From assembly GCF_011745665.1 (NCBI RefSeq), contig NZ_CP050253.1, positions 1,525,418 through 1,589,417 on the forward strand: a stretch of DNA of 64,000 nt, read 5' to 3'. The notes beneath the pieces are model-generated. The model searched no databases, was not told where the DNA came from, and saw only the letters and a program-made list of their open reading frames with translations. The stretch comes from Zophobihabitans entericus (GTDB lineage Bacteria > Pseudomonadota > Gammaproteobacteria > Enterobacterales > Orbaceae). Below, in pieces: positions 10,750 through 23,645 of this stretch. A program made the translations under genes and the position numbers. How positions within the stretch are numbered: position 1 is the stretch's first letter; each line of letters opens with the position of its first letter.

Positions 10750-11172
10750 ATGGATATTTTGGCACATAATAAAGAGTTTCTTTGGGGTGGTGTACGTAAA
10801 GCCTGGATTGTTGTCAAAGACAAAAAGGTACTGGACATTATTCTCATGGATAATGATATTTATTTGGATAAAATTCCTAGTTGGGTTAAAGCTATTTATG
10901 ATCAATATCCTGCTATATTTTGTGTAGGAAAAGAAAATTGTACCTTTAATTTAAGTGAAATTAAAAAAATAGCAATTGAGGCTGGTCATCCTGAATTTGG
11001 CCCACGAGGCGGTAAAATTTCTCCTACTTCCATTTTATCCGAAGCAATGGATATTTACGAAGCTGAAAAAAAAGTGCAGTTTCTTAAACATCGAGAAAAA
11101 TCAAAATCATATTTAGCAAAATTGGGTAAGGTCATATCATGTAACTGTGACGCACAAAATGTATATTATTGA
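10750..11172 (+). CDS. Hypothetical protein in operon with Aca2-like regulator; candidate anti-CRISPR
   Basis: This 140-residue protein is preceded by GGGAG nine bases before the ATG. I recognise no family. It has a strand-rich N-terminal half (RKAWIVVKDKKVLDIILMDNDIY), a segment with two cysteines (AIFCVGKENC) and a charged helical C-terminus. It is followed at 12 bp by an HTH gene of the size and architecture of Aca2-type regulators and preceded by palindromic operators. Small unknown gene plus aca in a mobile element is the classic anti-CRISPR layout, but antitoxin- or ICE-specific roles are equally open. Confidence 0.5.
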   Translation: MDILAHNKEFLWGGVRKAWIVVKDKKVLDIILMDNDIYLDKIPSWVKAIYDQYPAIFCVGKENCTFNLSEIKKIAIEAGHPEFGPRGGKISPTSILSEAMDIYEAEKKVQFLKHREKSKSYLAKLGKVISCNCDAQNVYY

Positions 11173-11184
11173 TTGGATTTAAAA

Positions 11185-11604
11185 ATGATATTGAGTAAAG
11201 CAGAATTTAAAACGTTAAGAGAAGCGTTAGGCTTATCTATACAAGATTTGGCTAGGTGGGCAAAAGTAGATGAAAGGAGTGTTCGCCGTTGGGAAAGCTT
11301 TTCTGAGCAAAATATGCCTCCTAAGCAAGTTGCTCTAAATTTATTAAAGTTAGAGGCAGATATCAATTTTGTCGCAGAACAGGGCTTAATTATGGCACGA
11401 GAAAAGTACACGGAGCATACTGAACTGGAGAAAATCGTTTTAATTCGCTATAAAACCAATGAAGAACTTTGGCATGCTAAACCTGATATGAATGGATTAC
11501 CGACAACAACACATGCAGTCTTACTATTTAAAACAATGAATTTATTAAAAAATGCTGGTTTTGATGTAGTCATTGAGTACTTCGATAGCACACACTATTT
11601 TTAG
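11185..11604 (+). CDS. HTH regulator, Aca2/YdiL (DUF1870)-like
   Basis: This is a protein of about 139 residues. The N-terminal helix-turn-helix reads LREALGLSIQDLARWAKVDERSVRRWE, close in layout to DUF1870/Aca2 proteins. A helix (LLKLEADINFVAEQGL) and a C-terminal dimerisation-type part with IRYKTNEELWHAKP and HAVLLFKTMNLLKNAGFDVVIEYFD follow. I chose the ATG at 11185; an in-frame TTG at 11173 is possible. By analogy it represses its own operon through the palindromes at 10638-10690. Assignment to Aca2 is by architecture only. Confidence 0.6.
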   Translation: MILSKAEFKTLREALGLSIQDLARWAKVDERSVRRWESFSEQNMPPKQVALNLLKLEADINFVAEQGLIMAREKYTEHTELEKIVLIRYKTNEELWHAKPDMNGLPTTTHAVLLFKTMNLLKNAGFDVVIEYFDSTHYF

Positions 11605-11929: not shown

Positions 11930-12034
11930 ATGAATATAAATTATTTTATTAATCAGGTTATTAAACTGACAGGTCTGTTTGCAGATAACGAATACGATAA
12001 TTCGTTGAGAAAAGCCTTACCTAATTTTGAATAA
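11930..12034 (+). CDS. Possible 34-residue small protein before the hairpin array
   Basis: ATG at 11930 follows TGGA by a few bases, and the ORF (starts MNINYFINQVIKLTG, ends PNFE) stops two bases before a strong terminator hairpin. The terminator directly after the stop codon makes translation plausible. The N-terminal half is hydrophobic and the tail is charged. No family recognised. It could be a small toxin-like or accessory peptide, or a fortuitous ORF. Confidence 0.3.
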   Translation: MNINYFINQVIKLTGLFADNEYDNSLRKALPNFE

Positions 12035-12035
12035 G

Positions 12036-12063
12036 AAAAAAGATACTCTTACAAGTATCTTTT
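12036..12063. terminator. Terminator hairpin flanking the repeat array, left
   Basis: AAAAGATACT-CTTAC-AAGTATCTTTT forms a 10-bp stem with T-tracts on both strands. It can end the small ORF transcript (+) and also any minus-strand transcript of the array. Confidence 0.65.
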
Positions 12064-12108
12064 CCCCCCCTTAATTACTCAAGAAGTAATTAATAATTTT
12101 AAAACAAT

Positions 12109-12324
12109 AGAAGCTGCCACTTATTCAGTGGTAAAAGATCAAGCATCCTACATGTTTTCTAAGCCGCCTATTCGGCGGTTAATTTACAACAAACATCATA
12201 CTTTCTAAGCTATCTATGAAAGATAACGTATATAGAAAAAGACTCATGTTTTCTAAGCCACTTATTCAGTGGTTAAGTATAGAATAAGACTTATATTTTC
12301 TAAGCTACTTGTTCAGTAGTTAAT
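12109..12324 (-). repeat. Five type I-F CRISPR-repeat-like hairpins, 47-bp period
   Basis: Units of 28 bp begin at 12109, 12156, 12202, 12250 and 12297 (plus strand), spaced 47, 46, 48 and 47 bp. Read on the minus strand, units 2, 4 and 5 match the I-F repeat plan: TTAAC start, 5-bp stem, 5-nt loop GAA(T/C)A, closing G, then the 3' handle CTTAGAAA. Stems differ but stay paired: CCGCC/GGCGG, CCACT/AGTGG, CTACT/AGTAG. Unit 3 keeps the handle with a shifted stem; unit 1 keeps the stem but lost the handle. Gaps are only 18-20 nt, and two of them resemble each other. No cas gene is in the window. Confidence 0.75.
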
Positions 12325-12428
12325 TTAAAAAGTATGGATATATAATAATCTATTTTAGTATGTTTTTTAAACAATTAAAGGGTGATTGAGATAAATTTAG
12401 TTATTCAAATATTATCAATTTATTTATG

Positions 12429-12457
12429 TAAAAAGATACTTTTTCAAGTATCTTTTC
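12429..12457. terminator. Terminator hairpin flanking the repeat array, right
   Basis: AAAAGATACT-TTTTC-AAGTATCTTTT has almost the same stem as the hairpin at 12036. On the minus strand it ends in TTTTT and can terminate the dsbA-like operon. Confidence 0.6.
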
Positions 12458-12489
12458 TCTCTTTTAAAATAGCACATCTTAATCAATAA

Positions 12490-13140: not shown

Positions 13141-15994
13141 GTTCATAAACTCCTATTGGTTCAATGCCTCTTTTTGCATCAATCTTTTCTGCTACTTTTA
13201 TGGCAGCATCAAGCTCGGATATATTAAATTCTTGCATCAGTTGGAAACGCTCGTTCTTTTCTTCAGGTTCTGTCATGGCTAATGCTAAGTACAAACTAGG
13301 GGGAACAGCACGAAACAGTAACTCCATAGACTTGGACAAAACCACGCCTTCCGTGTATTTTCCAGCTTCTTTACGAGCTGAGAGCATCAAGGCTTTTTGG
13401 GCGTTATTGAGTTTCCTGAATCGTGAGATTTTCTCAATCTCATCAGGAGGCATGGACAGGCAAATCCACCATTCGATCATGTTCAACATGACTTCAGCAG
13501 TTTCGGGAAAATCGTCCATATTCTGTGTAGCCAGCCAAAACCAAGCCCCGAGTTTTCGCCACATCTTAGTGATTTTCACAACATAGGGAGCAAGAAGGGG
13601 GTTTTTGGTGATGATATGCCCCTCGTCAGTCACATTAATAATCGGTCTACCTAAAAACTGATCTCGTTCTGCAATATTATTGACTGTATTGATCAAGGAA
13701 ATATAAGCAATCGACAGTTGTGCGTTATAGCCTTCACGCGCAAATGTTGCTAAATCGACAATCGTAACGTCCGCTTCGGGCCATGGCGTACCGGCACGGT
13801 TAAACATGTCACCGTCCACACCTTGACAGAACATGTCCATTGCATCTGCCATTTCAAGCAATCTGTTACGTCTGATTTCGGGGAGATTGTCATCTAAACC
13901 TCTATTCCTTAGAGCATTGCGAATATCTTCTGTTAAAACTGGTTTATTGTTTTTATGACATAGTGTTGCTGCATCGATGATGCAAGAACGGATTAGACTA
14001 CGATCTGCACGAGTCATACGTGCTTCTTCTTTTTCTTCACCACCTGTAATCATCATTCTGGCCGTGATTTCAAGTTCGCCAAGCACATCACGCTGCTCAT
14101 CTTGTGTGTCGTTTTGGCTCTCTTCTAAGGCATCTGCATCAATGGTTTGTACATTACTCGGATTTTCAACTAAGCGTAGTGCATCAGCAAAGGGCGCAAG
14201 GCTGACATTGGAACCAGGAGAGAGTCTGATACGATTAACGGTTAACCCTAGCTTTTTAGCAAATTCACCAAACAAGCCAAAGCTATTGCCAGCTTCAACA
14301 ATAAAGAGCCTTGGTCTGTATATAGCAGTGACTTGGTTAAGAATATTATTCAAAGTTGCGGATTTACCCGAACCTGTTGGCCCGAACAAGAATAAGTGGG
14401 CGTTCATCTGCCTATCTAATCTGTTTAATGGATCAAAAGTTATCGTACCGCCCCCACGGTTAAAGAACGTAATACCGGGGTGTCCTGTACCTTGGTTACG
14501 CCCCCACACAGGTGCAAGATTGGCTGCGTGTTGGGCGAACATAAGCTGTGTATACCACTGCTTTTTATCTCGATTAGGGTTATAAACACAAGGTAGCCAT
14601 CTTAAATAACTATTAAGCGGAGCAACCTCATCTTCTTCTCGAACAGGTTGCAAACCAGCACCCAACATCACATTACATAAATGCAAATCTCGTGCATTCA
14701 GCTCTTCCTGATTTTGACCGCGAAGGTAGAAGGCGATAGAACCGCGATAAAGTTTATGCGAACTACCAATAAGGGATCGGGCTTCTTGCACATCTTGCCG
14801 TGTTTGTTGGGAAGCCAAAGTATCGCCAACGGCTTTTTTTGCGAGATAATTAAGATGGGTTTCTAAGATATCTTGAGGCGTTACAACAATGGTAATACAT
14901 AGAGTTGTATCTTCAGGCATTTGATCAAAGAGTGAGTTAATTGCATCTCCCCCTTTGCTGGTCTCCCCTGTTAAATGTCCGATTGCTGGAGGGGTACGCA
15001 ACCGGTCAAGCACAATCACCCGATGCGGTGCATCATTAAAGTACCACTGTTTGTCCTTTGTCTTTGGCTGACTGAAGAACAATCGTTGTGAAAAATCAAT
15101 CCCACTGGCTAACTCAATTTCACCTTCTTCAGTTTCTTCAGGATATTTAGTCAACTCAAAAAACTTACGTTTGTCTTCTGGTTTATCACCTAATAAAGTC
15201 GGGTATGGATTAAACCAGCGAACAAGCCAATCGTGTATGTCAGCAGCTTGCATACGCTTGGCTTTAATGCCAGCATTGGCTAGTCCGCCACTTAGACGGT
15301 CACACACTATGGTTAATGCCTGTTCCGCAGTCATATTACGTGGTGCGGTTTTTTGATGACGATAAACCACCAGACGCACTCGTCTGGTTTGTCCGCGCCA
15401 CGGTAAGCGAGTAACTGTGGTGTCTTCAAAAAGCCCACCAGCCTTGGCAACTGAATGTAAATGATGTTGAAAAAATCGTTGGTAAAACTCAGTAAAAGCG
15501 GAACCTTTGGCACGAGGATGAATATAGTTGTTTAGCGTCTCAATATAATGATCAAAATTACTCTCATCTTGTGCATATAGTTGAATCACCCACGGCTGAT
15601 CCTCATCTTCATCAAAGCTGTCTTGTAAAGTGTTTTCCAGTGCATCACGTACTGTTTCTAGCCAGCTTGCTTCACGTCCTTCAGTGCCAATCGGTACTAA
15701 CTCAAAAAAAGCTGCGACTGATTGCCCATCATCAAGCAGCATCATTTTTGATTCAGGTAAATACTCTACCCAAGGTAGTAAATCTACGAATGATGGCGAA
15801 ACTTCGTAGAGTGCAGTCTCATCAGATAAAGTTGCACGCTTTTTTGTTGTTCTTCCTTGGCTCGTCTGCGGAGTGATACCGTGCTCTTGTAATCGTGTGA
15901 CATGCTTCTGCCAAGCATCTGTCTGTGTTTGCGATAAATCGTTTTTCTTTGCATCTTTATTTCCTCTAAATTTGGCTAAGATATTTTTAATCAT
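13127..15994 (-). CDS. traC: TraC/VirB4-like conjugation ATPase (PFL_4706 family)
   Basis: This 955-residue cytoplasmic ATPase energises the transfer apparatus. It has a Walker A FGPTGSGKSATL near residue 535 and a Walker-B-like TIVDLATF further on. Conserved C-terminal motifs include TDEGH and ATQNMDDFP. The ATG at 15994 overlaps the TGA of the preceding lipoprotein gene. Length and neighbours match the TIGR03744/PFL_4706 ATPase of G-type systems. Confidence 0.9.
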   Translation of the reverse strand: MIKNILAKFRGNKDAKKNDLSQTQTDAWQKHVTRLQEHGITPQTSQGRTTKKRATLSDETALYEVSPSFVDLLPWVEYLPESKMMLLDDGQSVAAFFELVPIGTEGREASWLETVRDALENTLQDSFDEDEDQPWVIQLYAQDESNFDHYIETLNNYIHPRAKGSAFTEFYQRFFQHHLHSVAKAGGLFEDTTVTRLPWRGQTRRVRLVVYRHQKTAPRNMTAEQALTIVCDRLSGGLANAGIKAKRMQAADIHDWLVRWFNPYPTLLGDKPEDKRKFFELTKYPEETEEGEIELASGIDFSQRLFFSQPKTKDKQWYFNDAPHRVIVLDRLRTPPAIGHLTGETSKGGDAINSLFDQMPEDTTLCITIVVTPQDILETHLNYLAKKAVGDTLASQQTRQDVQEARSLIGSSHKLYRGSIAFYLRGQNQEELNARDLHLCNVMLGAGLQPVREEDEVAPLNSYLRWLPCVYNPNRDKKQWYTQLMFAQHAANLAPVWGRNQGTGHPGITFFNRGGGTITFDPLNRLDRQMNAHLFLFGPTGSGKSATLNNILNQVTAIYRPRLFIVEAGNSFGLFGEFAKKLGLTVNRIRLSPGSNVSLAPFADALRLVENPSNVQTIDADALEESQNDTQDEQRDVLGELEITARMMITGGEEKEEARMTRADRSLIRSCIIDAATLCHKNNKPVLTEDIRNALRNRGLDDNLPEIRRNRLLEMADAMDMFCQGVDGDMFNRAGTPWPEADVTIVDLATFAREGYNAQLSIAYISLINTVNNIAERDQFLGRPIINVTDEGHIITKNPLLAPYVVKITKMWRKLGAWFWLATQNMDDFPETAEVMLNMIEWWICLSMPPDEIEKISRFRKLNNAQKALMLSARKEAGKYTEGVVLSKSMELLFRAVPPSLYLALAMTEPEEKNERFQLMQEFNISELDAAIKVAEKIDAKRGIEPIGVYEHEKI

Positions 15995-23478: not shown

Positions 23479-23645
23479 CCCTCATATATTTTGAGGGTGG
23501 CAACACAAGACAGGGGTGGAATTTAGTCTACACAACTAACAGCCCGAAGGCTGCCCTGTCTGTGTCACCATTGAGCAAGGCGAACAGAAACAGACATGAC
23601 AATAATTTAGCCATGTTTGTGTAGACAAGGGATTCCACTCCCTTA
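23479..23645 (-). ncRNA. Structured 5' leader RNA, copy B (CACCATTGA class)
   Basis: The outer stem is long: the plus strand around 23513-23535 (GGGGTGGAATTTAGTCTACA) pairs with 23616-23643 (TGTGTAGAC...ATTCCACTCCC). Inside are the hairpin CAGCCCGAAGGCTG and the conserved CACCATTGA (23566-23574). Another hairpin, CCCTCA/TGAGGG (23479-23497), lies just before the AGGAGG of the downstream gene. The motif is 109 nt from the start codon. Confidence 0.6.

Follow-up and report, generated by a model that had tools for sequence, protein, structure and literature searches.

A short-gap array of type I-F CRISPR-repeat mimics in an ICE of Zophobihabitans entericus as a candidate RNA anti-CRISPR

The array considered here occupies 216 bp on the minus strand (12324-12109) of the window, i.e. 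of the whole 64,000-nt stretch of the Zophobihabitans entericus genome that was analysed, and consists of five hairpin units of type I-F design. It is surrounded by ICE conjugation genes, recognised in family searches as TIGR03756, TIGR03757 and TraU, and its other neighbours are a Phd/ParE pair and a two-gene operon with an HTH domain in the second protein. In four ICEs of the same family TIGR03757 and the ATPase are situated about 0.5 kb apart, with neither a dsb-like gene nor an array between them, and the dsb-like gene, the array, the toxin-antitoxin pair and the operon therefore represent an extra cassette at this locus. An earlier note, made from the sequence alone, considered the operon (10750-11604, plus strand) to be acr/aca-like, which was not confirmed: no Acr or Aca family matched in Pfam, NCBIfam and PADLOC, whose libraries hold few Acr families, and the second protein showed weak matches of the HTH/MqsA-antitoxin type. 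For the first protein (140 aa, gene at 10750) no relatives were found in plasmids or viral contigs and no match in PDB; the operon could be either a toxin-antitoxin or an acr-aca-like pair. It should be added that two matches to C4 antisense RNA (RF01695), a family known from antirepressor control in phages P1/P7, are located on the minus strand of the window at 23493-23575 and 2570-2653.

Table 1. Coordinates of the array parts, the flanking elements and the host's own I-F arrays (window positions unless marked otherwise)
Feature	Position	Strand	Basis
Candidate promoter, TTTAAA or TTAAAA, 17-18 nt, TATTAT, directly 5' of the first hairpin	12342..12371	-	weak consensus scan
Unit 1, ATTAACTACTGAACAAGTAGCTTAGAAA, hairpin and handle	12297..12324	-	sequence; 33.6 bits to RF01317
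Gap 1, 19 nt, ATATAAGTCTTATTCTATA	12278..12296	-	sequence
Unit 2, CTTAACCACTGAATAAGTGGCTTAGAAA, hairpin and handle	12250..12277	-	sequence; 30 bits to RF01317
Gap 2, 20 nt, ACATGAGTCTTTTTCTATAT	12230..12249	-	sequence
Unit 3, divergent, handle present, stem off by one base (TATCT-TTCAT-AGATA), no C6-G20 pair	12202..12229	-	sequence
Gap 3, 18 nt, GTATGATGTTTGTTGTAA	12184..12201	-	sequence
Unit 4, ATTAACCGCCGAATAGGCGGCTTAGAAA, closest to genuine same-family I-F repeats (CTTAACCGCCGCATAGGCGGCTTAGAAA)	12156..12183	-	Rfam and BLAST
Gap 4, 19 nt, ACATGTAGGATGCTTGATC	12137..12155	-	sequence
Unit 5, last, CCACT-GAATA-AGTGG then CAGCTTCT, handle absent	12109..12136	-	sequence, repeat search
Terminator-like hairpin, AAAAGATAC..GTATCTTTT then T run, 13-bp stem in fold	12035..12063 (repeat 12032-12074)	-	sequence, repeat D4
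Second copy of the terminator-like hairpin, between dsb-like gene and array	12431..12467 (repeat 12425-12467)		repeat D4/I1
Orphan I-F arrays of the host genome	G000:C1:1274268-1274348 and 1283485-1283693 (L009:6269-6356 and 15487-15700)		

The five minus-strand units start 47, 48, 46 and 47 nt apart (Table 1), which agrees with the intervals of 46-48 nt read in the earlier note. Its further claim, that the I-F plan is followed throughout, stands for units 1, 2 and 4, which show exactly a 5-bp stem closed by C6-G20, a 5-nt loop starting with GAA and the handle CTTAGAAA, but not for the other two, the stem of unit 3 being shifted and unit 5 ending in CAGCTTCT, so that four units of the five possess the handle. 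Stems CTACT/AGTAG, CCACT/AGTGG, CCGCC/GGCGG and, once more, CCACT/AGTGG, with loops GAACA or GAATA, are indeed different in sequence yet fully paired, and unit 3 was still hairpin-forming in the predicted RNA fold. Promoter-like sites in the array region were not above chance in the consensus scan (8 vs 5.3 expected). Two copies of one terminator-like hairpin flank the array, as if insulating the cassette from the conjugation operon; the copy at 12431-12467 would part the array from the transcript of the dsb-like gene, and that at 12035-12063 is missed by the terminator scan, its G+C content being too low.

Unit 4 was matched by the Rfam model RF01317 (CRISPR-DR4) above the gathering score, with 37.9 bits, and a whole-genome scan with this model scored units 1 and 2 as listed in Table 1. 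Furthermore, the minus-strand segment 12036-12344 (309 nt) folded with z = -5.1 against shuffles and had all five hairpins in its minimum-energy structure. Given the match above gathering score and the fold, the resemblance of the array to I-F repeats is not due to chance. The comparison with I-F repeats of the family, proposed in the earlier note, gave 96-97% identity over 28-29 nt between unit 4 and 60-bp-period arrays of the same-family genome G006, and no match to the array was obtained by BLAST in plasmid or phage sequences. As already supposed, the gaps of 18-20 nt are too short for I-F spacers (31-33 nt in canonical loci, with few exceptions).

Cas6f, the sole cas family searched, was absent from the entire host genome as assembled (92% complete), in concordance with the earlier remark that no cas gene is near. 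A host range devoid of I-F systems, which would have spoken against that note's reading, was not what we found: of 35 genomes from the family, 24 contain Cas6f. Taken with the near-identity of unit 4 to the repeats of G006, this points to a target I-F system that exists in the likely host range, though not in this host as assembled. In the host itself two small I-F arrays occur as orphans, with a period of 60 bp, spacers of 32 nt and the repeat GTTCACTGCTGCATAAGCAGTTTAGAAA, and since both follow similar leader-like sequences, its cas genes have probably been lost. Repeats of these orphan arrays carry TTTAGAAA handles and CTGCT stems, unlike the units in the window.

Similar layouts were sought by scanning for patterns in which two handles are accompanied by 3' stem arms of I-F type, and the results were then passed through a hairpin filter. 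Broad handle patterns returned mostly coding repeats from viral and genome contigs, e.g. those of lysine/alanine-rich proteins, and hairpin filtering was therefore needed; class-wide genome matches other than the window all looked like coding repeats, and obvious ones were left out of the recurrence set. About 36 further elements with the order hairpin, handle, short gap and hairpin were recovered, nearly all from phage contigs or prophages, making 37 with the window after removal of near-duplicates, although some of the phages are related and not all elements are independent. The earlier note had supposed that such an array would be an unusual form of RNA anti-CRISPR; it is not unique in kind, as short-gap arrays recur and are commonest with just two or three hairpins. 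It had also named loss of stem or handle in related arrays as evidence to the contrary; in the other elements the stem, the handles of internal units and the spacing are all retained. Most commonly, one hairpin with a handle is separated by about 20 nt from a second one that lacks it, and in many cases a terminator comes next.

Distances between hairpins in the recurring elements are mostly 43-52 nt with a mode of 48, canonical arrays standing apart at 60/61. In viral scans over periods 23-90 the contigs left after hairpin filtering formed mainly two groups, one at 44-50 (22 counts of contig and period, with one contig at 44, four each at 46, 47 and 49, six at 48 and three at 50) and the other at the canonical 57-61; periods 51-56 had zero contigs, and outside the two groups only single contigs occurred. 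When a single handle was fixed and no demand was made on the 3' side of the hairpin that follows, 34 contigs emerged with distances of 43-52 nt (43-53 were permitted by the pattern), again with a mode of 48, equal to a 20-nt gap. The window array was joined only in part by the chaining script, because unit 3 broke the chain, and its row was not used. One short-gap array (L312) comes from an Aggregatibacter kilianii genome, where it adjoins sequence similar to SuMu, a Mu-like phage of Haemophilus. L546/G473, G277 and G031 were set aside as I-F arrays of the ordinary kind in which one or a few spacers are odd; in G277, a genome of the Aggregatibacter family, two loci (C1:1085531-1085596 and 1433777-1433831; L538, L540) resemble ordinary I-F arrays in which a spacer is occasionally shortened, giving periods of 42-53 bp.

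Within one short-gap array the repeats were 0.68-0.93 identical (1.00 in L430), vs 0.91-1.00 in canonical arrays. Gaps were also alike within several arrays (identity 0.50-0.93), and their GC content was about 0.29 vs 0.44 for the contigs, in a set that still included the ordinary array L546. Among 41 units the five stem pairs were all standard, and 27 cells had two-sided changes vs 8.0 ± 2.3 in shuffles; as the units had been pre-filtered for pairing, this count supports constraint and is not an independent proof of it. Of 31 hairpins that were neither first nor last, 30 had the handle conserved to at least 7/8, a figure biased upward by search patterns that partly required handles. Its loss from last hairpins is free of this bias: 35 of 37 elements end handle-less and just two retain at least 7/8, although decay of the last repeat is also seen in ordinary CRISPR arrays, e.g. 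the host's own two. A terminator follows within 75 nt of the last hairpin in 19 of 37 elements (6.5% at random positions), and Cas6f was found in none of the 27 viral records tested. No known Acr or Aca appeared among 89 array neighbours in the matches listed, which cover the 25 commonest families from libraries with few Acrs. Several arrays are situated near phage proteins that have a C-terminal domain in common (phrog_8351; 8 of the 89 neighbours; L041, L191, L432, L581, L583 and others).

LESphi3 and IME307, both phages of Pseudomonas aeruginosa, carry an element of two hairpins directly 3' of acrIF24, the AcrIF24 protein having been identified by PDB sequence match and its IME307 homologue being 82% identical. 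The same arrangement was seen in viral contigs L579, L584 and L589 with a 228-aa gene upstream of the element, and the protein of L589, the one compared, is 97% identical to AcrIF24 of LESphi3; five P. aeruginosa-type elements are thus located just downstream of AcrIF24 or of the 228-aa gene in its place. Their handle is CTAAGAAA, which is that of the P. aeruginosa I-F repeats (PMC9854967), and in the other elements CTTAGAAA or a close variant takes its place. Among the matches listed, a known acr gene adjoined the arrays in the Pseudomonas group alone. Across alleles of the acrIF24-linked elements (L534:1780-1850, L535, L584) the 18-nt gap TAATGCTTCTTGTGATGC is identical and the 5' side of the first hairpin varies, so that this gap may itself be under selection.

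We give roughly two chances in three to the reading that the window locus is an RNA anti-CRISPR directed against type I-F systems, its short-gap array giving rise to mini-crRNA decoys. A minus-strand transcript of about 300 nt would start near 12335 and end near 12036, and in a host with an I-F system Cas6f would, judging from the conserved C6-G20 stem, cleave after G20 of every well-formed hairpin. The predicted products of 46-48 nt would be mini-crRNAs in which the 8-nt CTTAGAAA handle is followed by a 'spacer' of 18-20 nt and then by a 3' hairpin, that of the last mini-crRNA being provided by unit 5; as unit 3 is off-register, one overlong crRNA may be among them. According to the rule L = 6N-4 established for Aggregatibacter I-F1, 20 nt correspond to four Cas7f, the lower limit for a stable Cascade being a spacer of about 14 nt (PMC7296934). 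Four Cas7f would therefore be loaded on a 20-nt spacer, while the handle would be bound by Cas5f-Cas8f and the hairpin by Cas6f. I-F1 Cascades with spacers shortened by 6, 12 or 18 nt do not activate Cas2/3, and truncated Cascades are stable and still bind target DNA (PMC7296934). Because such complexes do not trigger Cas2/3 and the gaps have no match in their own elements beyond chance, we propose that the short Cascades would tie up all Cascade subunits and so shield the element; it should also be added that non-targeting crRNA weakens interference as well (the Racr paper, PMC10651486).

This reading is supported by the anatomy of the array, its recurrence, the separate spacing class, the handle pattern, the Cas6f-free elements and the acrIF24 adjacency in one phage group, and the link to RNA anti-CRISPRs drawn in the earlier note for I-F repeat mimicry on an ICE is likewise upheld by the RF01317 match and the ICE genes. 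Absence of Cas6f, and hence of the target, from the window's own genome counts against it. Its mini-crRNA version is moreover weakened by the published solitary RacrIF1, the handle of which is largely dispensable. The latter finding agrees with an unlikely competitor, namely a tandem of ordinary Racrs in which each hairpin alone would capture Cas6f (and Cas7f on the upstream RNA), with no special role of handles or gaps. RacrIF1 works so, tolerating handle changes, and every well-formed hairpin offers a Cas6f site. Handles and spacing of independent Racrs would however be free to drift, and instead both are kept: the tandem leaves unexplained the narrow spacing of 46-49 nt, the retention of internal handles and the handle loss on the last unit. 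For a crRNA-producing array the loss of the handle is expected at precisely this place, after the last hairpin, and the handle pattern suits mini-crRNA decoys better than five independent Racrs.

Use of the short spacers as guides, steering Cascade to a promoter or a rival element as in CreA or viral mini-CRISPRs, is improbable, despite the array-like layout, the DNA binding retained by truncated I-F Cascades (PMC7296934) and the 10-nt seed that suffices for CreA (PMC8501985). When the gaps of 30 elements were compared with the sequence of their own element, CC-flanked matches to a 10-nt seed numbered zero (0.25 expected), and matches to a 7-nt seed numbered 6 vs 8.3 ± 3.0 in shuffles; self-targeting within own elements is thus not above chance, which speaks against guide or autoregulation models, and the likeness of gaps within several arrays is not that of independent acquisitions. 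Still less probable is a decayed, functionless CRISPR array on the ICE. The host does retain orphan I-F arrays, unit 3 and the last unit are degenerate, and a single short spacer is possible in ordinary arrays (L546), but here all four gaps are short, the repeats differ from those of the host in handle and stem, the stems have diverged yet remain paired, and the same layout is encountered in unrelated phages. Finally, the hairpins might serve some other purpose, such as RNA stability or protein binding, and have come to resemble I-F repeats by convergence, which would be in keeping with a host without Cas6f; this is scarcely credible in view of the match over 28-nt repeats, handle included, and of Pseudomonas phages with a host-specific handle and acrIF24 adjacency.

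Recurrence in dozens of phages suggests that blocking the CRISPR machinery with dummy guides of insufficient length is a widespread strategy, apparently undescribed so far. We incline, by a narrow balance, to the general view that mini-crRNAs with gaps of about 20 nt are common among the phages and conjugative elements of I-F hosts and would sequester all subunits in complete, cleavage-dead Cascades by a mechanism other than that of solitary Racrs, overlooked because repeat finders discard arrays. SRUFinder, with which Racrs were sought in the published work, is designed to reject arrays and flanking partial repeats (PMC10651486), and this recurring RNA anti-CRISPR design was consequently excluded by construction from the published search. 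If true, mobile elements exploit the R-loop-length checkpoint with guides that occupy Cascade without ever licensing Cas2/3, and many new candidates would become available together with natural I-F inhibitors independent of gap sequence. Short-gap arrays can be tested in the established I-F systems of P. aeruginosa PA14 type and of Pectobacterium. We found no description of such arrays in the open-access literature, subscription papers and preprints aside, and priority is uncertain.

In common with RacrIF1, the short-gap class mimics the I-F repeat, resides on mobile elements without cas genes, offers the C6-G20 hairpin to Cas6f and has an acr nearby in some cases; at the window locus a known repeat is matched both in sequence (RF01317 above cut-off, near-identical G006 repeats) and in hairpin, amid TIGR03756/TIGR03757 and TraU in a genome without Cas6f. 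A Racr is however solitary, with no repeat or partial repeat within 100 bp, whereas here five units share 216 bp and the class has at least two hairpins, a gap of about 20 nt and an internal 5' handle. RacrIF1 captures Cas6f and Cas7f; Cas5f and Cas8f escape it, as the RNA in the complex lacks a 5' handle, and changes to the handle of RacrIF1 leave most of the inhibition intact (PMC10651486). The internal 5' handle of the short-gap class should recruit Cas5f and Cas8f too, which would be a clear mechanistic contrast to RacrIF1, and the length rule of the class fits Cascade biochemistry.

Viral mini-CRISPR arrays (Medvedeva et al. 2019, as summarised in PMC11656645) similarly have at least two repeats in viruses without cas genes, but are described with host-identical repeats and spacers mostly matching related viruses, whereas the repeats of the short-gap class vary and its gaps measure about 16-22 nt. 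CreA of CreTA (PMC8501985) resembles the class in two degenerate repeats around one spacer-like sequence, cut by Cas6 in CreA; its PAM-flanked seed match to its own toxin promoter has no counterpart in the short-gap arrays, for which no 10-nt PAM-flanked seed match was found in the 64-kb window or the other elements. A regular I-F CRISPR array would have near-identical repeats and mutually unrelated spacers of about 32 nt at a period of 60, vs 0.86 identity between the first two units here. Engineered truncated I-F1 Cascades, in which a 20-nt spacer holds four Cas7f and DNA is bound without triggering of Cas2/3 (PMC7296934), are lab-made, and the short-gap arrays look like a natural use of this property. 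The class would thus seem to act like a Racr, while being neither a solitary Racr, nor a CRISPR array by spacer length and repeat identity, nor a CreTA by its seed.
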